Shown: positions 2,194 through 38,220 of the stretch, piece by piece
Layout: each line of letters opens with the position of its first letter
Position numbering within the stretch: position 1 is the first letter of the stretch
Source of the DNA: a virus
DNA length: 46,334 nucleotides
Virus record (IMG/VR): IMGVR_UViG_3300039106_000596
Span: 1-46,334 of that record
Reading direction: 5' to 3' (one strand)
Program-made: the position numbers and the translations under genes
Notes under the pieces: generated by a model
The model's database searches: none
What the model saw: only the letters and a program-made list of their open reading frames with translations
Told to the model about the DNA's origin: nothing

Positions 2194-3378
2194 TTATGAT
2201 TTCGTATCACCTCTAAAGTAATATGTCTGAGTTAATGGTGTTGCCGCAGGTATTAGTAAGTTAGGTGAAATCCAAACTACCCTATATTGTCCCGCAGGTA
2301 TTGCCGCTCCGCTAGTAACATTAACATCATAAGCCAAAGTAATAGATGCTACCGCAGGAATACCGTTCTCAATATCCTGTCCACAAACAGTCGTTCCAAC
2401 ATCTATTGTGTAGTTGTTAACAGAACCTCCAATACCATTTAATGGTAACCATATTGAATAGAAATATTTAATGTTTGGATTTACATGTGTTGTAGGTATT
2501 ACAGGTATAGAACCAAAAGCATATTGACTTAGACTACAACCCGAATATGTGCCAGGTGTTTGTAGTATTGGTCCCGATAATGTTATTGGTGTTACGAAAT
2601 TACCACCACCACTTATAAATGAAGGTTGGTGAGCATACACGTTTAAGTCATTATCATAATTTCCACCAGAGTTGTTTGGTACTCCAACACTATAATAACT
2701 ACCCCAATCAACAGCTCCATTTGCAATCGCATAATTTAATAAAGTAGTATCGTCACCACCATCTTGAGGTTCTGCGAAGATATATGCCGAGAATGGTGAA
2801 TTACTTGGTGTAGGTGTTTGAGTTAATGTAGGAGTGTTAGTTGGAGTTACGCTTGCGGTATTAGTTGGAGTTGCGGTATTAGTTGGTGTTACAGTAGGTG
2901 TTGTAGTACTAGCTGGAGTTGTACTTGGTGTCGCAGTTAACGTTGTAGTAGTTGTTGGTGTTGCGGTATTGGTTGGAGTATTAGTTGGAGTCGTAGTGCT
3001 AACTGGAGTTGTACTTGGAGTCGCAGTTAATGTTGTTGTAGGTGTAGGTGTTTGAGTGTTAGTAGGTGTAGGTGTTGGCGTTTGAGTCGCCCCTGTCATT
3101 GGGTCAGTTTGAGTAGGAGTTGGAGTAACAGTTGGTGTTGTAGTTGGTGAAGGGGTAACACATTCAAGAGTTATTACAACCCCATTAAGCATTTCATTTC
3201 TTGTTTGTGCCGAGTAATAAATAATATTATCAACATAAACATTAAATGGTCCTAAAGCATTTGAATTTGAAGCTAGTCTAACAATATAACTAGTACAGCC
3301 AGTAATCGTCAGTTGTTGTTCGATTTCTGTACCGCATCCAGGGGCTTCGTTTGTAACTAATATAGAGTATGTGGACAT
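2194..3378 (-). CDS. Structural protein with Thr/Pro-rich mucin-like stalk
   Basis: 394 aa, ATG at 3376-3378. It has three parts: an N-terminal small domain (residues ~1-75, with paired cysteines), a long low-complexity linker (~77-195) of T-P/T-N/T-Q/S-T repeats with an internal near-duplicate (TATPSTTP followed by V/A-STTTPT), and a C-terminal globular region (~196-394) with a GGG-containing, aromatic-rich sequence. No catalytic motif is recognisable. The architecture fits an extended adhesin or stalk displayed at the tail periphery, and the Thr-rich linker could be O-glycosylated in a Bacteroidota host (inference). A TATTTATTA box sits 14 nt before the start codon. It lies between a small structural gene and the collagen-like fibre. 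The detailed function is unknown. Confidence 0.7.
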
Positions 3379-3448: not shown

Positions 3449-3775
3449 TTACTGAAGAGTGAAAAGACAATTCGCTTCTTGAATGTCGATATTAACAACA
3501 CAAGACGCCAATTCTATTGTAATTTGGAAAGTACAACCAAAAGTACATTGTAATAATTTAAAAATGCTACACCCATTATTATCTGTTAACGTTAACATGA
3601 TTTCAGGTGCGGTATTGAATATAGAAGGTATTACCGTATTATATTCAATAATGGGTGGAACAGGTCCCGTATTAATAGTACCGAGTAAAGTTTGGTAATT
3701 TCCGTATACATCTGAAATGTATACGTCAATAGGATAAGTTCCTCCTGATATTTCGGTTATTCTTACTTGTGTCAT
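3449..3775 (-). CDS. Small cysteine-containing structural protein, unknown role
   Basis: 108 aa, starting at the ATG at 3773-3775 (MTQVRITEISGG). The start overlaps the stop of the upstream 711-aa gene as ATGA, a typical translational-coupling junction. A TTG three codons earlier (3784) is in frame but less likely as the start. The protein is beta-rich in appearance, with a GGTYPIDVYISD segment and several cysteines (GCSIF, LLQCTFGC, LASC, EANC). The segment resembles in style the N-terminal GPFNVYVD region of the next gene, so both may carry the same small beta-domain (weak inference). Its position among adhesin-like genes suggests a tail-periphery component. No function can be assigned. Confidence 0.7.
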   Translation of the reverse strand: MTQVRITEISGGTYPIDVYISDVYGNYQTLLGTINTGPVPPIIEYNTVIPSIFNTAPEIMLTLTDNNGCSIFKLLQCTFGCTFQITIELASCVVNIDIQEANCLFTLQ

Positions 3776-5907
3776 GTCAAACAAATTGTATCATAAACGA
3801 TTAATAACTCAACAATGATTTCTTGACCATCCAAAGTATTACTATTTGGATTGGTTTCGATTGTTATTTGATTATTACCTGAATCTACGGTAACATTTCC
3901 AATACCAGGTATTGTTTGTAACAAACTAACAACCGTATCGTAGTATTCATTATCAGTTGGCGCAACAACTAATGAAGTAGTTGTAAAGAAAGTATCACTC
4001 GCAGTTAAACCTAACGGATTAACAGAAACATTCACAGTGTAAGTCGCAGAAATTAAACTACAACTTGTATTACCCGATGTTAAATCATCAAATCCATCAT
4101 TTAACATTTGTAACAAACCATATTTCGTTTGTGATTGGATGTTAAACACTTCTGACCCCATCACATATGTTTGGTAAGAAGCATAATTTGCATCACAAGC
4201 AATGTCTGTAAATCTTTGTAATGAACATCCATTACTATCTATAATGGTAACATTATATGTCCCTGCAGTAAGTCCACTCACTTGAATTTGTTGTGGGTCG
4301 TTTGGTACATTAGGTGACCAAACATATGTAAATGGAGGTTCTCCTGAAGAAATAAACGCAGTTATTGAACCATTCGAACCATTACCACAAGATGTATTAT
4401 ATAAACTGTAATTTAACGAAGGACTTTCATTCACATAAACTTGTAATGTCTGAGTACAACCTGTATTATCAATAACCGTAATAGTATGTTGACCTGATGA
4501 CACGTTATTGAATGTCACGGCTGATTGTGAAGTATCCAACAGATTTACCAAACCATCCAACGAATAATCATATGGAGGTTCACCACCAGTTGTTTTGGTC
4601 ACAGTTATGTATCCATTATTTTGATTACAAGTAGTCCCTGTTGTTTGTGTTGAAATCGTGAATGTATTTGTTGCAATTAAAGTCACCTCATCCATGTAAA
4701 AACAACCTGAAGCATCCGCAACTGAGACCGTATATGTTCCCGAATATAAATTAGAAAATAATTGATTTGTTTGTGAATTGGCAACATTTAAAACATTACC
4801 ATTAGGGTAAATTAATGTATAAGTATATGGTGATGTTCCCCCATTTACCGCAACACTAATAGAACCACCATTACTAGAACATGTTGAACCTTGAGTGTTT
4901 ATATTTACGGATGTTATTCCATTTGGCGAAGTTAATACGGTTCCTTGAGTAAACGTACATAAACCTGCGTCAGTAACACTTATACTATAATTACCTGGTG
5001 ATAGTCCAGATATTGTCCAACTTGTTGCATACTGAACCACAACGTCTCCTGTTGATGCGGAATAATAATAAGGAGCAGTTCCACCCGTAATTTGAATTGT
5101 TAATACACCGTCGGCAGAAAAACAACTAGGTTGAGTTGCAGTAAATGTCCCAAAACCAAGAGGAGCGATATTATTAATGGTTGCAGTCTCAGTTTTAACA
5201 CACCCATAACCATCAGTAACATCAACAGAATAAATCCCCGCAGTTAAACCTGTTAGAGTAGACCCCGTCGCACTTGTACTCCAAGAATAACTAAAAGGTG
5301 GGTGACCTGTTAACCCTGTAACCATGATTTTACCAAACGGACTTCCACCACAAGAAGAGTTTGGTACCACATATAAACCATAGTTTAATAATGGAGAATC
5401 TTCAACAATAAAGTTAGAAGTTTGTGAGGTACATCCACCCAAGTCTTCAACGGTCATATAATATGTTCCCGCAGTTAAACTACCAAATACAACTGTCTGT
5501 TGGTTGGTAACCGCAGATTGTGAAAATACACCATCTCCATGGTATAAATAAAAATTGGTCGATGAATAATCCGATGTTGAAGTTCCTGTCACAGAACCGT
5601 TATTTAATCCACATGTTGTATCTAACACAGATACAATACTACCACACACCCCACTTGATATGGGGATGTTAATGTAAAATTCGGCGTTTGTTGGCAATGA
5701 ACTATCATTAACCCTAACCGCATATGTTGTGGCACTTAACCCTGTCTTAATCGCAGGTAATGTAGTTACAATATCAGGAGATAAAACAGGACTTAACCAA
5801 TCAACAGTATATGGTGGAGTACCACCAGTCAATGATAAACTGATTGAACCTGAATTAGTGTTTGAACAGTCTCCCGTTACCGATATGTTATAGTTAAAAA
5901 CTGACAT
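3772..5907 (-). CDS. SprB-repeat tail protein
   Basis: 711 aa. At least six, probably seven, tandem ~80-residue repeats fill residues ~5-580. Each has the order Cys - N/SGSI - GG(T/E)PPYxY - SGLxAGxYxVxVxDxxGC. This matches the SprB repeat family known from Bacteroidota gliding-motility adhesins and other surface proteins. Residues ~580-711 are a different C-terminal module (DTFFT ... PTDNEYYDTVVSLL ... ending YDTICLT) that resembles the end of the neighbouring 994-aa protein. The start codon overlaps the upstream stop as TAATG, and the stop overlaps the next ATG. No signal peptide is seen, as expected for a virion protein. The likely role is an extended tail appendage or adhesin contacting the host surface. 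The repeat family is secure; the role is inferred. Confidence 0.85.
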   Translation of the reverse strand: MSVFNYNISVTGDCSNTNSGSISLSLTGGTPPYTVDWLSPVLSPDIVTTLPAIKTGLSATTYAVRVNDSSLPTNAEFYINIPISSGVCGSIVSVLDTTCGLNNGSVTGTSTSDYSSTNFYLYHGDGVFSQSAVTNQQTVVFGSLTAGTYYMTVEDLGGCTSQTSNFIVEDSPLLNYGLYVVPNSSCGGSPFGKIMVTGLTGHPPFSYSWSTSATGSTLTGLTAGIYSVDVTDGYGCVKTETATINNIAPLGFGTFTATQPSCFSADGVLTIQITGGTAPYYYSASTGDVVVQYATSWTISGLSPGNYSISVTDAGLCTFTQGTVLTSPNGITSVNINTQGSTCSSNGGSISVAVNGGTSPYTYTLIYPNGNVLNVANSQTNQLFSNLYSGTYTVSVADASGCFYMDEVTLIATNTFTISTQTTGTTCNQNNGYITVTKTTGGEPPYDYSLDGLVNLLDTSQSAVTFNNVSSGQHTITVIDNTGCTQTLQVYVNESPSLNYSLYNTSCGNGSNGSITAFISSGEPPFTYVWSPNVPNDPQQIQVSGLTAGTYNVTIIDSNGCSLQRFTDIACDANYASYQTYVMGSEVFNIQSQTKYGLLQMLNDGFDDLTSGNTSCSLISATYTVNVSVNPLGLTASDTFFTTTSLVVAPTDNEYYDTVVSLLQTIPGIGNVTVDSGNNQITIETNPNSNTLDGQEIIVELLIVYDTICLT

Positions 5908-8891
5908 TATATACTACAATCTATATTAATATTTATTCCGACATTTAAAACCACGGTTTCTTGTAAGTTTTGAGGTAAGCAATTTAAGTTGGTTATTGTC
6001 AATTCATTACCATTTAAGAAGTAAGTATATCCGTAGTTGTATAATGTAGGTAAATTATCTATCAAAGCATTTCTCCATTCAGTATTTGTCGGAACATCAT
6101 TGTAACCATATCCCGTATAGAATGTTTCTTGTATTAATATATCACCCGCAATTCGTAAGTCAACAAACCATTCAGTTTGAACTGAGTTTTGGTCACATTG
6201 AGTTAATGTTAGCCCACTTGATGATAACATGTTGTTAATTCTGTTTGCCAAAATACTATCAAAGTTTGAAACCGTAATATCACCGTTTAACCATGGATAG
6301 ATATTGAAATCAACGTATTCAGTACTACATGTATAATCAAAAATATTTGAGATGATGAAACATGGGTCGACAGGAACAGGTACGAACTGACACCCTCTTT
6401 GTCTTCTATAAACAAATTTTTGTTTGTGTAATACAGAGTTTTCCAATCTAACCCCACCATTCCAAATGGTTGTTGCAGGAACCATCTGTTCCACCAACTT
6501 AGTCCAATAAGGACCAATACCATTCACGTAATCAATTAACTTTTGATACGTGTACTTGTTGTTAGGTAATCCAACAGTTTGTTCTGATTCAATGTATTTC
6601 CACCAAATAGATTGTAATGTAGGATAACCACCCGTCTTACCATCAGATATGTATTGTCTGTTTCGAGTGTTAATCATATTCTGCCAAAAAGTTTGGGAGA
6701 ATTCAAAGAATGTTTTCTTCTTAGGCTTGGGGTCAACATAAGTCCAATCCACTCCACCTGGTACGGGGTAACCAACCGTTAAACCTGATTCAGGTATCGG
6801 GTAGTCGTAGTTTCTTGATTGTTCCCACACATCATAAACAAGACCTTGACCAGGGTTTAAGAAAATGTCTACGTTTTTAACGTTTAACACTAATTTCTCA
6901 TTATCAACAAAGTAGTACGCATTGTAATCCCCTTGAGTTGAAATCCTAACCTTGTCGTCATCCGCTAACCATGACTTATTATTATCCACAACTTTTTGAA
7001 GTTTAAATCCTTCAGTCATATATGGGAAATCTCTAAATCTATTCAAATAAGTCTGACCATATGTGAATGGTTGTAATTGTGTTTGGATATTAAAGTTTTG
7101 ACCTGTAAACACATTTCCTGTAATTGTAACTTCATCAGGACTTCTATGTTGTGGAGTTTGTTCATACCAACCCGCTCCGATTTGGAAGAAATAGTTTTCA
7201 GTATTAACAGGTGCATTTGGATAACCCTCAAAATCTATAGGGTAATCATCCAATGTGATGTTAACATCTTGGTATGTGGCGTTTGTTGTAAAGGCAGTAA
7301 ATATTTGACCATGAATACTATAAGTTTGACCTACAGCATATGTCGGTGTTTCTTGAACATAAGTTCCACCTGAAATTTGAGCCCATTGAGTATAGAATTG
7401 TTCTAAATTAATTTTTTGGTCAGCCAAATAAATGTGTTCATTGTATTCAATCAAAGAGTCGGGAGCACCAATTAATCTTAATAAAAATTCAACAGACCTT
7501 CTCGTACCTTTTGATTTGAAAAGATAAGATGCATTAAGAATTAAGTTTCTATAATAAGCATAATTTAATTCTGTAGGAGTTAAAGCCCTGGCGTATCCAG
7601 GATAAGTTGGTGTTGCCGTGTTACCAAATACAGACGACAAGAAATCTTCATTTGTAATTGGTGAGAAATTAGATGACCATCCCAAAGTTTGAGATAAATT
7701 AACTAATAACTGTGATGGTATGTCGTTTGATGGATTATAATTTACAGAATTCATGTAAGCCAATCCTTCAATAAATTGTTTTATTTGGTCAAAGCTTCTA
7801 CCGTAGATTTGGAATATTTTTTCAACTTTTCTACCTAAAGTATCAAATTCTTTTAATGAATCTGAAACTAAGAATCTTGAAATTAAATTTGTTTTAAATG
7901 AATCCAATTCAACTGCAATTGATTGAATTTGTTCCAAATAATTATCAAATAAAAACGAACTAATATCTAAGTTCCACGGACCATTTTTTGGCCAAGTCAC
8001 TTGTTGGTAATTCGTATAAGTCTGACCATATTCATTTTGTGCGGGTACTTGGAATACCGCAGTGTATTCAGGTCTAACTAATCTATTCAATAAAAACTTT
8101 TCAACTTCATCAAAATCTTCTTGAAATGACTTATCAACTATATAGTCATTAGGTCTAATCTGATATTCATCGTTGATTGTTGTTGCGGTCGTACCAAATG
8201 GAGCTCCCGAAACATAAAATGTTAGTTCACCTGAAGATAATGTTTGAGATGGAACAAACGCCAATATTTTGAATATGTTATCGTTAATACTAATACAATA
8301 ATCCAAATAAGTCTCAGTTAAATTTCTATACTTAGATGAAATTATTTCTCGTATTGCTAAATTAGTTGTAGCACTAACCGAATAATCAATATCAAACGGG
8401 TTTTTAATACTACTAACATTTACTTTAAAATATGTTTCGTCGTTTTGAACATCATAAAAAATATCATACGCAGTATTTCCAGTCACATAATTACCATTAG
8501 CAAACTGAACGTCTAAAGATGCGGGAAAATAATTAATAATCTTAGTAATTGAAACCCTAAATCTTTCAGATAGGGAACCATACATTGAAAAATTAAGAAC
8601 TTGGGTAATATCAAAGTTAGGATAAACTCTAAATTGAGTTGCCAATATTCTTCGACTTTCTTCAAGACTGTCAATGTTCATAGAATCCAACGTCATAGGT
8701 TCGGAGAAAGCTCCGACATTGAATGTTCTATTAACTTTTTCTGTCACACCTGTGGTAAACTCAAAATTACCTTGCGTAAGTCCTCCACCCTCAACAGTTT
8801 GTAATCCTACAATGTTGTCAGAGAAGGTACCCGCACCATTACCAGGTCTTGGTGGGTAAAAGAATTTAGTATTTTTGGTATTTACCGCCAT
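5907..8891 (-). CDS. Large baseplate wedge/tail protein
   Basis: 994 aa, ATG at 8889-8891 overlapping the upstream stop (TAATG). Residues ~445-480 contain NAYYRNLIL-type helices followed by KSKGTRRSVEFLLRLIG. A K-G-T-x-x-x-(I/V)-E-x-L-L pattern of this kind is found in tail protein I / wedge-type baseplate proteins, which suggests it links the wedge to fibres. Around residues ~800-830 is a conserved-looking LVEQMVPATTIW...GG...EN segment followed by HKQKFVYRRQRGC. The last ~140 residues resemble the C-terminus of the adjacent SprB-repeat protein (ETFYTG ... PTNTEW ... ININIDCSI). Its place after gp6 in the tail run supports a baseplate role, possibly analogous to part of gp7, but the exact T4 equivalent is uncertain. 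Confidence 0.65.
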   Translation of the reverse strand: MAVNTKNTKFFYPPRPGNGAGTFSDNIVGLQTVEGGGLTQGNFEFTTGVTEKVNRTFNVGAFSEPMTLDSMNIDSLEESRRILATQFRVYPNFDITQVLNFSMYGSLSERFRVSITKIINYFPASLDVQFANGNYVTGNTAYDIFYDVQNDETYFKVNVSSIKNPFDIDYSVSATTNLAIREIISSKYRNLTETYLDYCISINDNIFKILAFVPSQTLSSGELTFYVSGAPFGTTATTINDEYQIRPNDYIVDKSFQEDFDEVEKFLLNRLVRPEYTAVFQVPAQNEYGQTYTNYQQVTWPKNGPWNLDISSFLFDNYLEQIQSIAVELDSFKTNLISRFLVSDSLKEFDTLGRKVEKIFQIYGRSFDQIKQFIEGLAYMNSVNYNPSNDIPSQLLVNLSQTLGWSSNFSPITNEDFLSSVFGNTATPTYPGYARALTPTELNYAYYRNLILNASYLFKSKGTRRSVEFLLRLIGAPDSLIEYNEHIYLADQKINLEQFYTQWAQISGGTYVQETPTYAVGQTYSIHGQIFTAFTTNATYQDVNITLDDYPIDFEGYPNAPVNTENYFFQIGAGWYEQTPQHRSPDEVTITGNVFTGQNFNIQTQLQPFTYGQTYLNRFRDFPYMTEGFKLQKVVDNNKSWLADDDKVRISTQGDYNAYYFVDNEKLVLNVKNVDIFLNPGQGLVYDVWEQSRNYDYPIPESGLTVGYPVPGGVDWTYVDPKPKKKTFFEFSQTFWQNMINTRNRQYISDGKTGGYPTLQSIWWKYIESEQTVGLPNNKYTYQKLIDYVNGIGPYWTKLVEQMVPATTIWNGGVRLENSVLHKQKFVYRRQRGCQFVPVPVDPCFIISNIFDYTCSTEYVDFNIYPWLNGDITVSNFDSILANRINNMLSSSGLTLTQCDQNSVQTEWFVDLRIAGDILIQETFYTGYGYNDVPTNTEWRNALIDNLPTLYNYGYTYFLNGNELTITNLNCLPQNLQETVVLNVGININIDCSI

Positions 8892-11752: not shown

Positions 11753-13427
11753 CTATCAATGGTTTAATTGGGAATTCAACACCAAGTGTGTTGTAATTTA
11801 TACCTTCAGGTATTAACCTAAAAGTTAATTCTTTAAATGGATATTGCGCGCTATTCAAAAATGGATAATCCACGCCTCGCTCTAAATTATCTTTAAAACC
11901 GTAACTATATAAATCCCTCCATCTAAATTGTTGGTCCGAACTTGAATAGTATGAATAAAACGGTACGTTATCTACCTGTCCAACATTCGCTGTCTCAACA
12001 TAATCGGAGAATACCCTAATTGTCATCGAGGTGTGTGGCTTATAATAAAAACCTGGACTATTCGTATCATACAAACTTGTAGTTTGGAATACGTTCTGAT
12101 TGTAATTAATTTTTTGATAATATGTCGATACAACCCTTTCAATTTGGTCATAGTCATTCCACTCACAAAAATCTCCGTCAATCACATCTCCTTCGTTTAA
12201 ATCTTGATTATAGTAAAAAGTTTTAGTTGCACCATTACTTAATGTGTAGTTTGATGTTGGTATATTAGTATCCGAATAATTATTTTGCAAATCCCACCAA
12301 GCACTTACAGGTGATGTTATATTAAATTCCCACCCTTGTTTTAAACCAATACCATTATTTGGTTGGTTAAAATAACCTGAATAACCTTTATTGATAATTG
12401 TTAAAAACAATTCACTTACAGGTCTACCCTGATTATCTAATACACCAAGTAAATTGATGTCTTTTGCCACGGTTACATTATATGAATTACTACTTGTCTT
12501 TTGTGAAATCCTTGATACTTGATTCGGAGTTATTGAACTATATTCAAATTGTTTTTCTTCACCAAAAACATTCTTTTCAAATCCATTTTTGGTAATGACC
12601 GTACTGTCAACACCTGTTAATATTTTGTGTTGTCTTATGTAATATTCAGATTTTGTTTCTGTAATGTTATCAGGGTTAATAACCCTTTTAAATGTACCCG
12701 TAACCCCGTTAGCAAATGTCGTACCTGTATATCCAAAATTATAAATACTGAAGATGTATTCCTCACTATCAAATTCATTATTACCTAACGAATATACTTG
12801 GAATAAATTTATTTGGTTATAAAAGAAAGATAACTCAACGTATTCTCCAACCGATAAACCATGAGGTGTAATACATTGAAACGATATAACATTACTCCCA
12901 TTTTGAGTTCTATTAATAATAGAAAACGGTATTCCTTCTGACGCAATCCAATTATACGAACTATTATTTAATTCATATGATAATTGTTTTGTACTATCAT
13001 TACTATAAGCATGACTAATATAATAAGTCCAATTGTATGTGTACGCACTTTTTGGTTTATACTCAATATGTTGGTCAGTTATTCGTGGTCTATAAAAATC
13101 AAACTCGTAAAATTGTGGATATCCTTTCCATATACCGTTAACTGTTGATTGAATTGAATCAACATAATATAAGTTATTTTTAAATGGTACGTATTCAGTG
13201 GTACCTGTATATGTATTAGCGTAAATGTAATTGACTTTAAAGGTTGGTCTAAATGTTGAGCTAGATTGTCTTTCATCGTCAAAAACCTGTGCAAGACTAA
13301 TACTCTGACTTCGGTCGTACTCAACAATCTGTTGTGATTGTTGTTCTAATTCCACAGAAATTTCTTGGTCAACAAATGGCGCTGACTTATACTGTTGACT
13401 ACTTGGTATGATAGTATACTTATTCAC
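11739..13427 (-). CDS. Tail/baseplate-region structural protein, unknown
   Basis: 562 aa, ATG at 13425-13427, overlapping the end of the 1702-aa gene by 8 nt. It begins MNKYTIIPSSQQYKSAPFVD, then a Gln/Glu-rich stretch, then a long Tyr/Asn/Ser-rich beta-type sequence of the kind seen in fibre and wedge proteins. The C-terminus (FKELTFRLIPEGINYNT) is followed by LGVEFPIKPLIDECE. No enzyme signature. It is embedded in the operon headed by the 1702-aa protein, with which it probably assembles. I do not recognise the family. Confidence 0.7.
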   Translation of the reverse strand: MNKYTIIPSSQQYKSAPFVDQEISVELEQQSQQIVEYDRSQSISLAQVFDDERQSSSTFRPTFKVNYIYANTYTGTTEYVPFKNNLYYVDSIQSTVNGIWKGYPQFYEFDFYRPRITDQHIEYKPKSAYTYNWTYYISHAYSNDSTKQLSYELNNSSYNWIASEGIPFSIINRTQNGSNVISFQCITPHGLSVGEYVELSFFYNQINLFQVYSLGNNEFDSEEYIFSIYNFGYTGTTFANGVTGTFKRVINPDNITETKSEYYIRQHKILTGVDSTVITKNGFEKNVFGEEKQFEYSSITPNQVSRISQKTSSNSYNVTVAKDINLLGVLDNQGRPVSELFLTIINKGYSGYFNQPNNGIGLKQGWEFNITSPVSAWWDLQNNYSDTNIPTSNYTLSNGATKTFYYNQDLNEGDVIDGDFCEWNDYDQIERVVSTYYQKINYNQNVFQTTSLYDTNSPGFYYKPHTSMTIRVFSDYVETANVGQVDNVPFYSYYSSSDQQFRWRDLYSYGFKDNLERGVDYPFLNSAQYPFKELTFRLIPEGINYNTLGVEFPIKPLIDECE

Positions 13428-16400
13428 TTATAGAATATTTCGTTTTAAATTTATCTAACGAGGTTAGACCTTTTTTAATACCAAAATAAAAATGGAATGG
13501 AGCACTAACTAAAAACTTATTCGATGGGACTCCCGCCACACTAAAAGAATAATTTCCAGTCGAATCCACATTAAAAATATACCCTCTTTGATAAATATCA
13601 CTAGTGTTGTTCGCTCCAACAAAATACGTTGGTTGGTTAATATTTCTCCTATCTAATGATTGATAATTATACCCAAAAATACCACTTGTATTTATATCTG
13701 ACGATTGATTAGTTTTCCAATTATTATCCTGAGAACCAAAAATACTTTGTATCGCTGGTTGTTGTAACTCCCACTGATAAAACGGTACGTATTGAGATTT
13801 AATACCATAAGGATATGTTAATACGGTTGTTGGTGTCGGCCTAAAATTAATTACACCTGGTGTTAAATAATCTTTGTTTTGCAAATCAACCGTGGTTGAT
13901 GAAAAGAAAACTCCCATAGTTGGATTATCCAATGAACCTATAACTACAACGGGGTCATTAGCACTACCGTTCACATTATAAAATTCAGTTGAAAAGGGTA
14001 CGACACCATATTCTGAATTAATGGAAAAACTTTGAGCCAAATCACCGTCAATTCTAAAATCGGGTCTTGAAAATAACTGATTTAATCCATTATCACCAGT
14101 AGGAATTAATTGTTGAAGCCAACTCTCATCCGTAATTCTACTAATAACAAAAAGATTAACTAAATCTGAAGTGTCAGAATAACTTGATGGGTTTAAACTG
14201 TTCATGATATATCCATTAGTAGACGCATCATATACGATTTCCTTATACACATCACTTTTAACCCCTAAGTTAATAATTGTAGTTGGAAATAATAGATTTC
14301 TTGAGTTCACTGGGTCCTCCAATCCATTTGTTGGTCGACCAATAAATCTTGATACCGTTGACCCACTCAAATACGGAGAACTTCTATAATAAAAATTATT
14401 AGTTTTTTCATCAAAATATACCAATTCTTTTGCAAATTGTGGTGGTAGTGGTTTGTTTTGGTCATCATAATAGGTGTCCACTTGTATTGGAAACATATAT
14501 AAAGAACCGTTAACCCAATTATTTGTGAATGATTGTGCAAGAACTCCTCTACATAAACCATAAAAGAATCTAAACCTATATCCCCATTCATTCCACGATT
14601 GCATATCTTTTTGTAAATCATCCCATGGATTTACAACAAAAACATAACAACCGTTTTGTACTGAGTCAGTATTAGAACATCCAGCTTTAACTCCAAAAGT
14701 AACACTATTACCAGTGTAACAATTAAGTCCAACCATATTCTCACAAGTGTTTAACGATTGAATTACGTTTACACTCGCAATTTGACCTGTAATCTCAGGA
14801 ATAACAATTGATGCTCCTGTGTCAAAACCACTAATTAATAACGAACCTGTCGTTGTTAACTCAATTGTGTACGCTGCAAATCCTAAATTTTGTTGTAATA
14901 AACTAACACTACCGTCCAAATTACCACTATCTATATAATCGGATGATGGTAACCTGTCAGTTCTCATAATATTTTTAGAATGATTTGTAATACTAAGTTG
15001 ATTATTTCCTGTAAGTGATGGATATAATATAGGACTAAAATAAATTGTGTCGAATGAAGCATAGCTTACTTGAGTCTGTGGTAATGTTGCGGTATTTGCA
15101 GGATACTCAGTTAAAGGATTACCGTACAATATTGCCCCACCAGATAAATCTTCAGAAGTATCATAAGTAGTTCCTAAAATAGCAAATCCTTCATAATATA
15201 CGTTTGCAGTGTTAGTTGTCGCACCATTAGAAGTTCCGTAAGTAGGTGTTTGATTTATGTAGTTTTGAGATTCATATGTATTATTAGGAGTAATAACTAA
15301 CCTATTTGTTGATATCCCGTCTAAAGCACCGTAATACCCAACGTTACTTGTTGTATATGATGAGTATTGTAAACCAGGTGTTGTTGAACCAATAACTCCT
15401 GGTGTATAAAAATGTGATTGGAAATATATATTATCCTGATTGTCGTGTTGTTGAATTGAAGTTGGTGAGCCGTCAGGTATTTTTTGTATGGGTATATTAA
15501 CTCTAGTTGTGGCGGTGAATATCCAATTAACATCATTTTCATCGGTACCAAATAAAGTACCTATTGAATATTTGTTAGTTAATAATGGAGAGTACGGGTC
15601 AACTCCCCTTTGTAGTACTAAAATAACTTGGTCCGTAAAATTTTCTAAATAATCCGTAGGATTTAAAGTTACAGTACTTTCTAAAGTCCTCGCACCCGTT
15701 GGGTATCCTATAATTTGAAGTTCATAGTTTTCTATAATACTATTTTGTCTTAACACATCTTCATAGAATCCACCCGAACTTGCAGAATTTGGTAATACAG
15801 GCACAGTAACTCCGTTAATTGTTGTAGTACTAATTGTTATTGCAGTTAAAACTTGGTAATATTCAATATCCGAAGGATATATATATCTCTGACACGTATC
15901 CCCACTATTAATTACACTAAATGTTGCAGACCCATTTAAAGTCGCTATTGAAATACAATTGTCATTTAATATTGTTTGAACACCTAATGCGGTTGCATTG
16001 TACGTATTACTATTTCCATCACAATCCCCATAAGTTATGGTACCTAAATTTGTAACATCAACTGTAACACTATTAACACATTCTACTGATGTATTTTGTG
16101 GTATAGTATAAATTGTTGTTAATTCGTTGTTAGTATTGTTTGGGTCCGCATAATTAACATTAATATTAAATTGGTTAGTATTCAACGTACCATTAATACC
16201 CTTTATTTCATTACCACCAGTATTTCCTGACCATAAAAAGTTTTTGTCGCTACTTGTATTTGGATTTACAAAAGTAAGTAGAGTTCCTGGTGAAAGATTA
16301 TTTGATGATAAAACAGTGAGAGTGTTATCATAATGATAAGTTAAGTTAACATCAGAAGCAAAAGTTACTTTTATTTTATTAACTCCCTCAAAATATTTGT

Positions 16401-18528
16401 TTCTGGTATTGAAAATATTAATTCTTTCACCAATAGGTAATGTTTGTTTTTGTATTGAATAATCAAATCCCGCAAAAGTTGCGCTTTTAGCACATTTAAA
16501 TACTGTGGGGTCATCTTGTTCACCACTAAAAGTGGCCATTGCTTCAGAAATTGTAGTTGTAAGATTAGCATTAAATTGTGTGGATAGTTTATTTGTGTAT
16601 AAAGCTGGATTTGAAACTTGGGTAAGTAATGCCGAAACTGGTGTAGGTTCTTCAGAACTAATGCTTGGCGGAATATAAGTATCATCACAGTTACAAGCCT
16701 GACAATCAGGATAAGTAATCATAGGTAGCTTGAATGGCGGAAGTTTAACACCTTTTAAAAATTTTTGAGCCAAATTAACAACAACTAATAATACTCCCCA
16801 CACAGCTAATGAAGGAATATAAGTGGCCGCCAATAAAAGTGCAGTTCCAAAAGTGGGTACCCCCATAGCAAGAGCCGCCGCAAATTGAGCAGCAATTATT
16901 ATAAGATTTGCAACAATAAAAATTTTCAAACCTGTAGTCAACGGATTTGCAAATTTATTTAAAAGTCTTGCCGCAACATGATAAACAAATAAAAGTGGTA
17001 TACCTACAATTTGAATTACGGTAAATAATATTGCAAATACAAAATAAATAAAATCAAAATTTCTAAATCCTTCATTCACTGGAAATTTATTAATAGTACT
17101 TTCACAATCATTACTATCAATTTCTTTAATCCCAACAAATCTACCCCTACCTCCGTTTTTAAATTCATCAATCAAACCAGATACGGTATAAACACGATTA
17201 TAATTAAATTCATAAAAACTATCCTCACAAGATACTGCAGCATCTATATTTGTATATCCTGACCATTCCACACCAAAATAATATGAACCTGCCAATTTTT
17301 CCTGTACCGATGCATTTGTTGAATAATTTGGGTCAGAACTAACATTTGACCAACCATATTCTCTAATATTTGGGACTAAAAAGTACGGTCTCCTTGTTTG
17401 TTCTGTTAATGAATTTGGTTGTTGCCATTTAATTTTAAATCTATATTTTGCCTTTGTCGGTATCCCAATTGTAGGGTCGTTTGAAATTACTTTTTCACCA
17501 AATTCATTAGTTATAAAATAATCTAAATTCATTGGTAGTTCGGTTAACCAAGTACCGTCCCCGTCAATCACATTACCCGCTTGTTCTAATTCATATTGTT
17601 CTAATATTGGGTTACCATCAGTACCCTGTTGGATTGTCTGTCTTATTGATAATATTTGTCCTGGCCCCGCTTGTAACCCACAAAGATTACCCATATTGTC
17701 TTTTGGTCTCGCAGTTTTTCTGACTCTCATATTATCTGGTGAAGAATATATCGACCCCATAAATACTGATGTTGGTTGTATATCAACATTTGCATCATCT
17801 CTTAAATCAAAATCAAGTCGATTGATTGCAATATCACAAACACCAGGGTCTCCCCATAATGGAGATATTTCCACATTCTTAACTAAGTTGATAATTTGAG
17901 GTAATGAGTTGATGTCATTAGAAGTTCTAAATCTATTACCAGCAACTTGAGCTTCGGTCGCCAAACCCATTCTAATTAAATCTTGCGGTGTCAATGAAAA
18001 CTCACCAATGTCAGATAAGTCTACATCCATAACTACAGTTTGATACCCAAGTGGGACACCCATAATCATGTAATCACCACTATCATTTGTTTTTGCAGTG
18101 AACTTGTAATATTTGTCGTATATTTCAACCGCAGTACTTCCTGTCAACGCATCTAATCTTGATGGTAATGTACCCGTAGCTGCGTGAGCCGAATATGATT
18201 TTTCATAAGGTAATAAGTTATACCTATAACCATCCTCATTTTTATCTGTTGGAGATTTGTAAGGATATATACTTGAGATAATTGGATTTGATTCATCGAT
18301 ATTTGTAATTGGGATGAATATGGAAACTCTTGCATTAGGTAATCCAAATCCGTTGTTAGCAGTAACCCTACCAACAATTACTCCGTAATCCGCACAACTT
18401 CTTATGTAGACATCCTCTTGTTGTATTTTTAAAGATAAAATCTCTAACTGTTCAAACTCTTGGTCTAACTGTACATTGATAGTTTTACTAATACCTAACT
18501 CAGTCCTTATTCTATATGATTGACCCAT
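13420..18528 (-). CDS. Giant baseplate-region protein with internal membrane-type helices
   Basis: 1702 aa, ATG at 18526-18528. Residues ~48-170 resemble a carboxypeptidase-regulatory-like (CNA-B type) beta domain: GVIVGRVTANNGFGLPNARV, later FTAKTNDSGDYMIMGVPLG. Residues ~490-590 hold three or four long hydrophobic segments (FIYFVFAILFTVIQIVGIP; IFIVANLIIIAAQFAAALAM; ALLLAATYIPSLAVWGVLLV). They are followed at ~605-615 by a dense cysteine cluster (CQACNCDD). The remaining ~1,080 residues are beta-rich, Asn/Thr-rich structural sequence. It directly follows gp6, the position of gp7 in T4, but is much longer than T4 gp7, and hydrophobic helices are not expected of a wedge protein. It may be a virion protein that inserts into a host membrane during DNA delivery (inference). 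A TATTTATTA box lies 13 nt before the start. Confidence 0.7.
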   Translation of the reverse strand: MGQSYRIRTELGISKTINVQLDQEFEQLEILSLKIQQEDVYIRSCADYGVIVGRVTANNGFGLPNARVSIFIPITNIDESNPIISSIYPYKSPTDKNEDGYRYNLLPYEKSYSAHAATGTLPSRLDALTGSTAVEIYDKYYKFTAKTNDSGDYMIMGVPLGYQTVVMDVDLSDIGEFSLTPQDLIRMGLATEAQVAGNRFRTSNDINSLPQIINLVKNVEISPLWGDPGVCDIAINRLDFDLRDDANVDIQPTSVFMGSIYSSPDNMRVRKTARPKDNMGNLCGLQAGPGQILSIRQTIQQGTDGNPILEQYELEQAGNVIDGDGTWLTELPMNLDYFITNEFGEKVISNDPTIGIPTKAKYRFKIKWQQPNSLTEQTRRPYFLVPNIREYGWSNVSSDPNYSTNASVQEKLAGSYYFGVEWSGYTNIDAAVSCEDSFYEFNYNRVYTVSGLIDEFKNGGRGRFVGIKEIDSNDCESTINKFPVNEGFRNFDFIYFVFAILFTVIQIVGIPLLFVYHVAARLLNKFANPLTTGLKIFIVANLIIIAAQFAAALAMGVPTFGTALLLAATYIPSLAVWGVLLVVVNLAQKFLKGVKLPPFKLPMITYPDCQACNCDDTYIPPSISSEEPTPVSALLTQVSNPALYTNKLSTQFNANLTTTISEAMATFSGEQDDPTVFKCAKSATFAGFDYSIQKQTLPIGERINIFNTRNKYFEGVNKIKVTFASDVNLTYHYDNTLTVLSSNNLSPGTLLTFVNPNTSSDKNFLWSGNTGGNEIKGINGTLNTNQFNINVNYADPNNTNNELTTIYTIPQNTSVECVNSVTVDVTNLGTITYGDCDGNSNTYNATALGVQTILNDNCISIATLNGSATFSVINSGDTCQRYIYPSDIEYYQVLTAITISTTTINGVTVPVLPNSASSGGFYEDVLRQNSIIENYELQIIGYPTGARTLESTVTLNPTDYLENFTDQVILVLQRGVDPYSPLLTNKYSIGTLFGTDENDVNWIFTATTRVNIPIQKIPDGSPTSIQQHDNQDNIYFQSHFYTPGVIGSTTPGLQYSSYTTSNVGYYGALDGISTNRLVITPNNTYESQNYINQTPTYGTSNGATTNTANVYYEGFAILGTTYDTSEDLSGGAILYGNPLTEYPANTATLPQTQVSYASFDTIYFSPILYPSLTGNNQLSITNHSKNIMRTDRLPSSDYIDSGNLDGSVSLLQQNLGFAAYTIELTTTGSLLISGFDTGASIVIPEITGQIASVNVIQSLNTCENMVGLNCYTGNSVTFGVKAGCSNTDSVQNGCYVFVVNPWDDLQKDMQSWNEWGYRFRFFYGLCRGVLAQSFTNNWVNGSLYMFPIQVDTYYDDQNKPLPPQFAKELVYFDEKTNNFYYRSSPYLSGSTVSRFIGRPTNGLEDPVNSRNLLFPTTIINLGVKSDVYKEIVYDASTNGYIMNSLNPSSYSDTSDLVNLFVISRITDESWLQQLIPTGDNGLNQLFSRPDFRIDGDLAQSFSINSEYGVVPFSTEFYNVNGSANDPVVVIGSLDNPTMGVFFSSTTVDLQNKDYLTPGVINFRPTPTTVLTYPYGIKSQYVPFYQWELQQPAIQSIFGSQDNNWKTNQSSDINTSGIFGYNYQSLDRRNINQPTYFVGANNTSDIYQRGYIFNVDSTGNYSFSVAGVPSNKFLVSAPFHFYFGIKKGLTSLDKFKTKYSISE

Positions 18529-18620: not shown

Positions 18621-20459
18621 TTAAGAAAAAGTAATTGATTGGAAGTTCTTAACTGAAACTCGGATGTCTTTACCAGGGTATCTAATTTGATAAACCTGAG
18701 ATGGTTGAGCAAAGATTGTATCGTCAACAGGAGCAATTAATTTAAGTTCTGGGTCTGAATATTCCATTGATGTTTCAGCTGAAGAGTATTGACCTCCAAC
18801 CTCATTGAATACTTCTAGTCCCGCAACTGTTAACACCCCATTTGTATTTTGAATAATACTTCTAATCTCCGATAGATATACGTTTTGACCTAATTGTCTT
18901 GTTTGTGGGTTAAAGTAAGCAGATACTTTATCAATAACACTTGAAATAACTTGACCCGAATTTTGAGCCGAATCTAAAACAATTGAAATGTCAACGCTCA
19001 AGTCTATAACCTCAGCACTAAAGATTGATATGTAATCGTTCATCATACGATAGTTTGATAAATAATTAGCAATATTCTGTCTAAGAGTGTTTGACACAAT
19101 ATTTGTTAATTTACCTGACGTATCATAAGACAATATTTGAATTAAAATTTTATTGTCGTTTTCAGTAATGGATACCTTCGCAGGTGCTCCAAACTGAGCT
19201 GGCATGTTTCTAATAATTGATTCGTAATCTTGTACTGTTACCGCTCTTTTCTGAGCCGCAAAGTTAAATGATACATAATTTCTAATTTCTTCTAATGATG
19301 GAAGTCCTGCACCACCTACCGCGGCAGTTACGTTAACACATCTTAATGAGTTGATTACCGCAGAGTTTGTTGTTTCTGAAGGACCATTAACAAAGAAAGA
19401 TACCGTACCAATCTGATTGATTACGTTAGTTCCCAAGTTTGTTGCCAAACCACCACCAACTCTATATTGAACGAACAATGTTGAATTAGGTGTTAGTGTT
19501 GAACCTAATGAGAAGTTGTTTGAATATTTCTGTAGTTCTAATGTTGTACCTAAAGTTGTGAATTGATTCAATTGGTCTTGAGCGGTATTGGTACCTCCCC
19601 CAAAAGTCATTTTCTTAAATCCTTCAGGAGTATATTCAGTAATAAATCGATTCTGAGTTTGAATGTATCTACCCACTTTAATACCAGGTTGGTCTGAAAC
19701 TTTGGTAGGGTCTTCAATGAACACTCTATCCTCAGCCAATGCATCCACCTCGTACCATCTATTCTCAGCACCTAAAAATTCGGCTGTGGTTGGTATGTTC
19801 GTATATTGAGTTCCGTTTTTTAATAACACACTTGTAATACCTAACACATTCTTTTCAGGTAAGAACAATTCAAAGAAGGGTTTAACGTCATTTGCACTGA
19901 TAACTCTTTTGAACACTTTGGTAATTCCATTAACAACAATTTCTCTTTTTGTAATTGTGTAGTTAACAAGTATTCCGTTAGAATTAAAATTAGGAATCTT
20001 CAATCTATTTGGGAAACCTTGAGCGTTGTATGGTGACGCAAAATCAATATCATAAACATTTTCAAATACAACACCCGCACCAACAACTTGTGAACCTCTT
20101 AATAAAGTACCAAGATATCTCTCATCTTCTTTATCACCAAATGCGGGAACAGTAACTGAAAAATCAACTAAGGCAACTGATGGTCTTTGACCTGGCAACT
20201 TTAAACCATAAGTTCGGGCTATATTGTAAATGGATGACCTTTGTTGTGCATATTGTAATACTGTCTCTTGTACACTTCGGTCGATGTTGTAATGTAAGTT
20301 GTCAGCAATTGCCGCGTTCAAATCGATAAAAACAGAGAATACCGATGCGTCATTAAAATCTTGAATTAAATCAGGATAATATGTTCTTGTATAATTTAAG
20401 AGTTCAGTTCTAATTGACTGATAATCTCTAGTTGCGTACGATATTCTATTATTTGCCAT
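18621..20459 (-). CDS. 6: Baseplate wedge protein gp6-like (baseplate J family)
   Basis: 612 aa, close to T4 gp6 (about 660 aa). The N-terminus (SYATRDYQSIRTELLNYTR, then DASVFSVFIDLNAAIADNLHYNIDR) is typical of gp6/baseplate-J proteins, where this helical region clamps neighbouring wedges. The middle contains SLEEIRNYVSFNFAAQKRAV and TVQDYESIIRNMPAQFG, the conserved J-type block before the C-terminal domain. In T4, gp6 forms the dimeric ring around the central hub with gp25 and gp53. Here it follows gp25 by 5 nt, and the wedge partner gp53 is also in the window. The assignment is confident at family level. Confidence 0.9.
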   Translation of the reverse strand: MANNRISYATRDYQSIRTELLNYTRTYYPDLIQDFNDASVFSVFIDLNAAIADNLHYNIDRSVQETVLQYAQQRSSIYNIARTYGLKLPGQRPSVALVDFSVTVPAFGDKEDERYLGTLLRGSQVVGAGVVFENVYDIDFASPYNAQGFPNRLKIPNFNSNGILVNYTITKREIVVNGITKVFKRVISANDVKPFFELFLPEKNVLGITSVLLKNGTQYTNIPTTAEFLGAENRWYEVDALAEDRVFIEDPTKVSDQPGIKVGRYIQTQNRFITEYTPEGFKKMTFGGGTNTAQDQLNQFTTLGTTLELQKYSNNFSLGSTLTPNSTLFVQYRVGGGLATNLGTNVINQIGTVSFFVNGPSETTNSAVINSLRCVNVTAAVGGAGLPSLEEIRNYVSFNFAAQKRAVTVQDYESIIRNMPAQFGAPAKVSITENDNKILIQILSYDTSGKLTNIVSNTLRQNIANYLSNYRMMNDYISIFSAEVIDLSVDISIVLDSAQNSGQVISSVIDKVSAYFNPQTRQLGQNVYLSEIRSIIQNTNGVLTVAGLEVFNEVGGQYSSAETSMEYSDPELKLIAPVDDTIFAQPSQVYQIRYPGKDIRVSVKNFQSITFS

Positions 20460-20464
20460 TTATA

Positions 20465-20935
20465 TTAAATATTGATAATTACAAAATCACTCTGTCCGTA
20501 TGTCGACCCGTTGGTTGAGTAATCTAATCTTATTTTTGCAGTATATTCAGATGTACCTTTACCAGGAAATCTGTAAATTGATGATTCACTTGAACCTACG
20601 ATATTTTGTCCTGTTGCAATATCAACTTCTTCTTGGGCGTCTGCTGGTGTAATACTTAAACTATTAACCAACAAGTTTGGCATAAATGTTTCAATCGCAT
20701 CTCTAATGTCAGATTCAATAGCATTAAATGTTAAACCGTCAAACGGTTCAAAAAGGAATTCATATAATCTTGTACCAAATTGAGGTAAAAAATATCTTGA
20801 ACCCTTTCTCGTTAATAATAAATGTATCAAATCGGCTTTGATTTCCTGAGATTCTAATTCTGTAAGTTCTAAATAATCACCACGTCTAGAATCCCTAAAG
20901 GGAAAATTTATACCATAAGTAATTCCATCTGCCAT
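20465..20935 (-). CDS. 25: Baseplate wedge protein gp25-like (GPW/gp25 family)
   Basis: 156 aa, somewhat longer than T4 gp25 (132 aa). The conserved core is at residues ~30-100: IKADLIHLLLTRKGSRYFLP, QFGTRLYEFLFEPFD, then ESDIRDAIETFMP. This is the signature order of the gp25/gpW lysozyme-like-fold wedge family, which initiates sheath polymerisation in contractile tails. It lacks obvious lysozyme catalytic residues, as is normal for the family. It is the first gene after the nrdA terminator and is followed by gp6 after 5 nt. A TATTTATTA 9-mer occurs only 2 nt before the ATG (20938-20946), and a TATTTAAAG lies at 20964-20972. Which of these, if either, is a promoter is unclear. Confidence 0.93.
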   Translation of the reverse strand: MADGITYGINFPFRDSRRGDYLELTELESQEIKADLIHLLLTRKGSRYFLPQFGTRLYEFLFEPFDGLTFNAIESDIRDAIETFMPNLLVNSLSITPADAQEEVDIATGQNIVGSSESSIYRFPGKGTSEYTAKIRLDYSTNGSTYGQSDFVIINI

Positions 20936-30545: not shown

Positions 30546-33500
30546 TTATAGAGTGAATCCAAATTGGAAGAATTGTGTTGCCGTACTATTTTCATTTGGT
30601 TGTTGTATTTTTCTGGCACTTATTTTCAAAGTACAAAGTACTTTACTAGTACCCTCTGGAATATCAATACCTTCATTATCAAAATAAAATAACACATCTT
30701 CGGCGTTTACTATATATGTAGTTTCGTTATTAAAGAAATTATCCATATAACTAGAAGGTATTGTTCCTTCACCTAAAATAACTTGAACGTATTGATTGTT
30801 TGATGTTGCACTCATTTTTACACATTGGTACGTCAATGATGGTTTTGGAGCACTTAAGTATAACCATTCAGCATTTCCTACAGCTCCTCCAGGTATTAAT
30901 TCAGGATTGATTTTTACTGTAAGTTCATAAGACGAACCATCAAATTCTGATACCATAACCACAGGCCCTGTTTGTTGTGGATTTGTATTACTATTTGGTG
31001 GTACTGATGGAACAACTGTTGGTGGTGCCGCGGAAACTTGTTGTGGATTATAAGTAAATGTTGTTGTAGTTGAGCCACTACCATAAACCCCTCCTAATGT
31101 TATTACATTGTTTTGTGGTACCGTAGTATTACTAAACGGTACAATAACAACTACGTTAGTGTCTCCGTTTATAGTAATACCTGTTGTTACCGTAACCCCG
31201 TTTACTGTAACGGCCGTTACTGAATCTAAATCATTACCAACAATATTAACAATTGTACCTGTAACACCCGTTAATGGTGTGAATGATGTGATGGATGGTG
31301 GTAAACAAACTACTGGTGGCGGTGATGTTGTATTTTGATTATTTGTTGCACCTGCACCCCCACTTGCAATTTGTTGTTCCTGAGCAGCGTTAGCCTCTCT
31401 AAGAGCGTTAGTCGCATCACCATTTAATTGTACTTTATTAGCAGATTTTAAACCGTTCCTAACTGTTTCAAATAATGTTGTATATTCATTTTGATTTGCA
31501 TCAAAATATTCTGGAGTTATATTAGGGTTATCACTTGTGGATGGTCTCCAATAACAAACATAATATTTCGGTACTCCTAATGGTGCGTTTCCATTAGTAC
31601 CAAAGAAAACACGTCCAACGTTTTGTTCTAATCTGGAAATCATGAAATCCAAGAATTTATCAAGACTGTCAAAATTAGCTATTGGTGTAGAACTGTTTGT
31701 TGTATCACTCGTTGAGTTTGAGACTGATACACAAGATGATTGTTGCGGTATAAAATACTCTCTCCCATTTGCACCCCAATACACACTTAACTCAACATTA
31801 GCAAAGTTATTATTATACCCATAAAAATTATCTTTGTTGAATGTTTTAATGTAACATATTAAATAAATGAGAACTTGTAAATTCGCATTACTTGTTTTAG
31901 CAACAATTGCGTTGGCTAATTCTTGTGGTGTTAATGCAATTGTGGTAGATTCAACAAAATTACCCCAAGTAGCATAGTTAGTGTTTAACATTAATGTACA
32001 ACTATTAACTGCTGCGGCAGTGTTATCACCAATCTGTGTTAAAATTGCGGTTTCATTTATTCCAGTTTTTGGTTTATCGGGTATATTCTCTTTTTTCTTT
32101 AATATTGCAGTTTCAATCTGTGTTAATAAGTTTTGATTTAAACTTTGTAATAAATTATCAATAGACGGTAAATCAAAAATACCTTGTCTAATACCCGTAA
32201 AATCTGTTTGGAATTGTCCAGGTTGAATACTATGATTAACTTCAGTTATCAAATAAGGTCCGTTAAACATTGGGACGTGTCTTAAATTGAAATACATTGT
32301 TGGTTGTAATAAAGCATTACCTAAAGAAATTACACGACATTGATAACTTCTTTTCTTATATAAGTTATATAAACCAACATTTTGAGTTGCAACATTTTTA
32401 CCATTAGCTTGGTTAACCATATCAATTTGAGTCTGTATGGACTCTGAGGTTGCCTTACCACTATCCATTGAAACCTCAAACGAGTAGAATATATTTTGAT
32501 TCCTATTTCCTACATCAACATTAAACCCAACACATTTATTTGACACCGCCCAATCTTTCTTACCAATCTGATTTTCAATTAATGGATTTTCAGACGCTCT
32601 TCGTAATTCAAATGAGTCATCTCTAAATCTTGAATTACCTTTAGGTAAATCTAATTGAGATGATGGTAGTCCCGCATAAAAACAAACAACTTTTGGACTC
32701 GATTTTCTATAATCAACATCTAAAAATGTTCCCCACATATTATCAGCAAACTCTAAAGAGCCTTCAGAATTCTGTGAAAGAGTTGTTCCATCCGCATCTT
32801 GAACATTATAAAAATTAACATATGCAGGTAATGGCATCACATTAAATTTATTCTTAATAAGAATTCCACTTAAGAATGTGAATACACTCATCTCCATATT
32901 GAATGACGACTCTTCAAAAGTTTTATTCCCTAACAGAGTATCTTTCAATGAAAAGATATCAACTAATAAAGTATCACCAATATTTCTTGAAGCTCTGTCC
33001 AAGAATAAGAAATCTTCAAATAACGTCTTACTTGAATAATCTCCACCCGCAACCCACTTATCGTTCAATGCTTTAAATACCTCATAATTTTCAACTTTGG
33101 ACTGTTGTCCATCAATCACGCTTTGTATTTTCTTTTCAGGTAACTCTTGTTGATTAGGTAATGCAAGTCTAACCCCAGCCAACACTTGATTTAAAAATAA
33201 GTTTTGAATTGCAGTTGTCCCGTCTAAATAAAGTTGTATTCTAGATTTAAACTCATTACTTGTTAAAGTTGGTGTTAACAGTTTTTGTGTTGCATATTGT
33301 TTTATTAATTGAGAACATAAAACAATATTATCTACAGTAAACTCGATGTTATTATCAATAAAGAAATCCGTAATATATGAACCTTGATTAGTATATCTTA
33401 AGTTTTGAATTGTTGAAAACCCAACCTCAGTTTCTAACGCTAACCACTCATTTGGGTACTGAGCCCTTGATTGAGCTAAAGTTATTGTTCCGTTACTTGA

Positions 33501-37907: not shown

Positions 37908-38220
37908 AATAATAGAAATAATTTTCTAAAGCCGCTTTATAGTCTTGTAATGAAGGTAGTAGTGGATAAGGAATAATCAATACCGCCCCATCGAAAATAT
38001 TATTTTCAAGACCCCCAAATTGAGGGTTCGCCTGTAAAATTAACCAACCAAAATACGGTGAATTATAATACTCTTGAGATACAACATCTAATCGACTACG
38101 AGCCACTTTATATATATAAGACTTATCAGTTGGTTTTTGAGGTAATTGCACAAAAGGAACAACGGTCTGTTCACCATTAATTAAAAAATCACTATATCTA
38201 TTCCAATATTGGTACGCCAT
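37897..38220 (-). CDS. 53: Baseplate wedge protein gp53-like (LysM-like)
   Basis: 107 aa. It begins MAYQYWNRYSDFLINGEQTV and has a LysM/gpX-like core: SRLDVVSQEYYNSPYFGWLI, ANPQFGG, then IFDGAVLIIPYP. This matches the gp53 wedge family of T4-like phages (T4 gp53 is 196 aa; cyanophage-type versions are shorter). It joins wedges through gp6 and gp25. The ATG overlaps the 1677-aa stop as TAATG, and the end overlaps the hub gene by 11 nt, so all three are likely translationally coupled. Confidence 0.82.
   Translation of the reverse strand: MAYQYWNRYSDFLINGEQTVVPFVQLPQKPTDKSYIYKVARSRLDVVSQEYYNSPYFGWLILQANPQFGGLENNIFDGAVLIIPYPLLPSLQDYKAALENYFYYYGR

Follow-up and report, generated by a model that had tools for sequence, protein, structure and literature searches.

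A probable tail-fibre shaft of seven SprB-type repeats in a T4-like phage

The SprB adhesins of Bacteroidota are type IX secretion substrates that carry a distinct repeat family (Pfam PF13573). Here we describe a 711-aa phage protein that shares with them this repeat family, its paired cysteines and the signatures GGTxPYxY and AGxYxVxVxDxxGC. In the bacterial adhesins an N-terminal signal peptide is combined with a C-terminal Por_Secre_tail or CHU_C domain, and the repeats number 2-48, whereas the phage protein carries no such signals and always seven repeats. Phage structural proteins made of Ig-like repeats are already known; what appears to be new is a Bacteroidota adhesin module deployed as a strictly seven-repeat rod.

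Other described systems resemble this protein in part. Aureispira sp. CCB-QB, itself a member of the Bacteroidota, has a long extracellular appendage in which Ig-like domains are likewise strung together (the grappling-hook protein GhpA), but that appendage is bacterial. crAssphage, a predicted Bacteroidota phage, carries Bacteroides-associated tandem repeats of the BACON family, a different domain family from SprB, and the abstract of that report describes tandem repeats of domains as hotspots of evolution (PMC6949934), in contrast to the fixed count found here. A closer likeness is UniProt entry A0A6J5LD72 (via BFVD; 714 aa, 35% identical), which probably belongs to the same family as the 711-aa protein. 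It and A0A6J5LDA4 carry only the automatic label 'SprB repeat [uncultured Caudovirales phage]', and our search found no papers describing SprB repeats in phages or either of these entries. A fibritin of Citrobacter phage KKP_3664 (L041:6537-9098), fused to ordinary Ig domains (Fibritin_C, then Ig_3), was considered and set aside.

At the level of the genome, Flavobacterium phage immuto (Immutovirus) has the same core order, SSB-recombinase-exonuclease-DnaB-NrdB-NrdA, as the window analysed here (the whole 46,334-base viral record), with tail genes in corresponding order. The corresponding region of immuto includes genes with tail-fibre and tail-spike annotations, but, unlike the window protein, these are without SprB repeats.

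Seven SprB-type repeats in a baseplate and fibre cluster

Judged by its genes, the window is part of the genome of a T4-like myophage, a relative of immuto. It has a GC content of 34% and encodes gp6-like and gp25-like baseplate wedge proteins (18621-20935, minus strand, from PHROGs and sequence matches), a baseplate hub protein and a replication block of SSB, UvsX-like recombinase, exonuclease, DnaB helicase and both ribonucleotide reductase subunits. A search with the gp6-like protein gave just three hits, at ~27% identity (immuto, Microcystis phage Mel-JY01 and an uncultured phage), and the same three were again top-ranked for the DnaB helicase. Three very long ORFs also lie among the baseplate genes, at 13420-18528 (1702 aa), 30546-37907 (2453 aa) and 38220-43253 (1677 aa); a PHROGs search of these three returned zero matches.

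The 711-aa ORF occupies positions 3772-5907 on the minus strand. An earlier, sequence-only reading had claimed six to seven SprB-type adhesin repeats here, at 4200-5900, and had named a profile search against the SprB family as a check. That assignment holds. PF13573 matched the protein with E 1.4e-28 and 98.7 bits (cut-off 28) over six stretches, and the whole protein as well as three single repeats scored above the curated cut-off. Searching the window with the SprB family alone likewise returned six places, three of them above the curated cut-off, and the same search of 14 control genomes returned zero matches. The exact count is seven: a profile built from the split units of the 711-aa protein itself detected seven units over residues 4-572, at 66-88 bits each, placing the repeats at 4195-5907, in agreement with the range given earlier. 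Paired cysteines occur in every repeat and are invariant in 21 relatives. The composition of the protein is skewed (Thr/Gly-rich), which might invite the idea of a chance or low-complexity resemblance to SprB; we give this idea practically no credence, because it is ruled out by the E-value, the clean controls and the seven aligned units with their two conserved cysteines.

All seven repeats lie on the minus strand. R1 (residues 1-88; 5644-5907) has no signal peptide ahead of it, and R2 (residues 89-175; 5383-5643) is the most divergent with respect to bacterial repeats. R3 (residues 176-250; 5158-5382) is the nearest to bacterial SprB repeats, by a bacterial-genome search and by repeat comparison, and R4 (residues 251-330; 4918-5157) is the top single Pfam SprB match. 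R5 (residues 331-413; 4669-4917), R6 (residues 414-496; 4420-4668) and R7 (residues 497-571; 4195-4419) were delimited with the repeat profile. A 140-aa C-terminal alpha/beta domain follows (residues 572-711 plus the stop codon; 3772-4194).

An AlphaFold model of the full protein shows a string of beta-domains with an alpha/beta end (pLDDT 75, pTM 0.34). Because this model is modest, we take the rod shape from the domain string. The best matches among PDB structures were parts of GhpA (E 2.4e-19); the top three showed 15-16% identity and reached global TM-scores of only 0.16-0.24. The best viral structure match was A0A6J5LD72 (E 2.8e-58). Since the global TM-scores of the full model are low, the comparison with GhpA argues for a common Ig-like string and not for a likeness of overall shape. 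Modelled alone, the C-terminal domain gave a better result (pTM 0.70). No solved relative of it was found by sequence or fold at E <= 0.001, and its matches were confined to viruses. By eye, it was suspected to be common to the 711-aa protein and the 994-aa protein encoded upstream; hhalign gave this a probability of 2%, and the suspicion was dropped.

The neighbouring genes, all on the minus strand, place the protein in a tail context. The 994-aa upstream protein (5907-8891) is of baseplate type: it has a segment in common with the large protein encoded downstream of gp6 in two phages, residues 364-485 for Mel-JY01 (E 4e-8) and, more weakly, residues 453-482 for immuto. Its gene and the 711-aa gene have one base in common, the last of the former and the first of the latter, and the end of the 711-aa gene in turn overlaps the next gene (111 aa; 3449-3784) by 13 bases. 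The 111-aa protein resembles, on inspection and by a weak BLAST match (E 0.002), an eighth, very divergent SprB-like unit in a separate gene, below repeat-profile detection. Next comes a 394-aa protein (2194-3378), in which comparison with relatives distinguishes conserved residues 1-74 from a Pro/Thr linker and variable tip, and then a collagen-like fibre gene (1-2167; Pfam Collagen, E 3e-62) that carries GTSGSSGTDG repeats and runs off the window end. With the wedge genes, the synteny with immuto and the downstream collagen-like fibre, the 711-aa gene thus lies within a baseplate and fibre cluster, and gene position and synteny support its earlier description as a phage tail protein.

This location also bears on whether the protein could be a head decoration of the Hoc kind, displaying its Ig-like domains on the capsid surface. 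Weak pointers in that direction are the PHROG 3945 and PHROG 4069 (Hoc-like) matches, the former at E 4.5e-8 over 65 residues only, and very weak matches of the R3 profile to two PDB decoration proteins (E 0.023 and 0.14). The PHROG match reads as a generic Ig-like resemblance, although as far as family goes it leaves room for a head protein. The gene is coupled to a baseplate-type gene inside the baseplate/tail-fibre cluster and has tip domains fused to it in some relatives; we consider a capsid role rather improbable.

Origin of the repeats

A bacterial-genome search with R3 returned 567 stretches, and 79 of the best 80 were from Bacteroidota, which bears out the earlier suggestion of a host link. 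The remaining one of the best 80 lies on a contig labelled Saccharospirillaceae (L121) that encodes two SprB proteins. Because the one scanned has a CHU_C type IX domain, this contig is probably misbinned Bacteroidota. The C-terminal part of the 711-aa protein had zero matches in bacterial genomes.

The sequence-only reading had also called for a phylogeny of single repeats against host adhesins. A tree built from 127 repeats placed the phage repeats of each position, from R1 to R7, in a separate clade (SH-aLRT 95-100). As each position is one clade across phages, the seven-repeat array is older than the diversification of these phages. With equal sample sizes, R3, R4 and R7 were closer to bacterial repeats than to neighbouring repeats, R3 with a bias because it had seeded the bacterial set; R1, R2, R5 and R6 were not. 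A phage-only clade with no host link, the outcome named beforehand as speaking against a host origin, is seen only by half: the best tree interleaves the phage positions with bacterial repeats, but a single phage clade was not rejected (p-AU 0.54, for a smaller set of repeats that are themselves short). The repeats may have been captured once and then diverged, or been captured several times. The best reading is that the repeat module represents an ancient capture from Bacteroidota surface adhesins. The proposed copy from a host gene thus stands as regards a Bacteroidota-type module, and fails as regards a recent or loose copy, since the array predates the diversification of the family.

Repeat number and export signals in the phage family

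Scanning viral contigs with the 711-aa protein revealed 31 loci with relatives at 61-96% identity, and scanning with R3 revealed 499 stretches encoding a relative. Every complete homologue fetched with these probes (103 of 103) had exactly seven repeats. Because repeat probes could bias the repeat count, a separate scan was made with the C-terminal domain alone; it returned 280 stretches, and in all 80 homologues fetched the domain again stood behind seven repeats. The sets of 103 and 80 overlap and combine to 77 distinct proteins. Homologues are mostly 709-717 aa long, the longer ones having C-terminal additions, and indels are almost absent down to 61% identity. We suggest that the count is fixed at seven because the length of the rod probably matters; it could instead reflect missing recombination between diverged repeats.

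In 8 of 10 longer family contigs tested, the major capsid protein was 45% identical to that of immuto over the matched part. Because the relatives thus include this Flavobacterium phage, by replication order and by gp6-like, helicase and capsid matches, a Bacteroidota host is likely.

The family also differs from the bacterial adhesins in its termini. By inspection, the 711-aa protein has no hydrophobic leader that would indicate a signal peptide, and its MSVFNYNISVTGDC-type start is kept in relatives. A Pfam search gave neither a Por_Secre_tail nor a CHU_C sorting domain at a passing score, and a low-scoring Por_Secre_tail hit (E 0.012) lies in R7, away from the C terminus. Bacterial homologues mostly have signal peptides by eye, all five scanned have Por_Secre_tail or CHU_C, and those fetched have 2-48 repeats as counted with the phage-trained profile.

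The viral search also returned a protein that does carry these signals. Encoded at L040:9274-14286 of a 642-kb uncultured megaphage (LR756502.1), it is 1670 aa long and combines a signal peptide with 13 SprB repeats, a PKD domain and CHU_C; in the tree, nine of the 13 cluster with repeats of Flavobacteriales. A search of viral contigs with exact-peptide patterns found no relatives of it. These features suggest an adhesin that the phage encodes and the host would display on its surface after export. Since the same approach detects both signals in the megaphage protein, their absence from the 711-aa protein is not a failure of the test, and it favours a part of the virion that is assembled in the cytoplasm. 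The 711-aa protein might alternatively be placed on the infected cell by type IX secretion, for instance to block superinfection, as bacterial SprB proteins are such surface proteins and the megaphage carries one. The tail-gene neighbourhood makes this very improbable, as does the fact that neither the window protein nor its relatives have a signal peptide or type IX domain.

A probable constant shaft with variable tips

Conservation in this gene cluster drops from base to tip. Identity to the more distant relatives is 85-93% for a 302-aa protein, 78-85% for the 994-aa protein and 60-69% for the 711-aa protein, whereas conservation in the 394-aa protein is usually confined to residues 1-74. 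Along the 711-aa rod itself identity is roughly even, in the repeats and the C-terminal domain alike, and no hypervariable part or change in copy number was seen among the homologues compared. Variation appears instead in C-terminal extensions of some homologues (L194, L206, L209, L211, L212, L214, L215 and L216), which differ in their tip domains, leucine-rich repeats in L212 among them, and in most of which Pro/Thr linkers occur. Such a pattern fits a shaft that stays constant while its tips vary.

We conclude that the 711-aa protein is probably a tail part, most likely the shaft of a baseplate-anchored fibre, or a connector in it: a captured SprB rod, fixed in length at seven repeats, with recognition left to the tips. 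The sequences themselves show the repeats, their constant number, the age of the array, the lack of export signals, the surrounding tail genes and the variability of the tips; from these we infer the location of the protein in the virion, its role as a shaft, the constraint on its length and the Bacteroidota host. The seven SprB-type Ig-like domains would form, in a row, the rod of the fibre. The C-terminal domain would serve assembly or docking in this phage group, docking being a guess because the domain has no solved relative. Variable tips would recognise the host, with the 394-aa protein or the collagen-like fibre in this role and, for some relatives, the C-terminal fusions. The repeat module would have been taken long ago from the Bacteroidota adhesin pool, its number then becoming fixed at seven.

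The sequence-only reading had suggested another use of the repeats, namely that they help the virion to bind the host surface or moving adhesin tracks. In such a scheme the SprB rod itself would bind surface polymers of the host or its SprB-type filaments, and the virion would hitch onto gliding adhesins. The repeats do share the gliding-adhesin family, with several positions near bacterial repeats, and for a Flavobacterium columnare phage resistance is linked to loss of gliding and receptors in the gliding machinery have been proposed, though not proven (PMC7345892). That phage, with a 46-kb genome, belongs outside the family of the 711-aa protein, and the rod here is without hypervariability or change in copy number, whereas the neighbouring tip domains vary. 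Because the rod is constant, export signals are absent and the receptor-type domains that vary are encoded by the next genes or sit in C-terminal extensions, we do not favour binding by the repeats and regard it as unlikely. It is quite improbable, too, that a seven-repeat, length-setting shaft still docks on the moving SprB-type filaments of the host before the tips find their receptor.

With a baseplate-fixed shaft as the preferred reading, the fixed count of seven across a widespread uncultured phage group offers a simple test of the importance of fibre length. Behind the rod, the variable tips are candidate determinants of host range, and SprB repeats in phages may serve as a marker pointing to Bacteroidota hosts.
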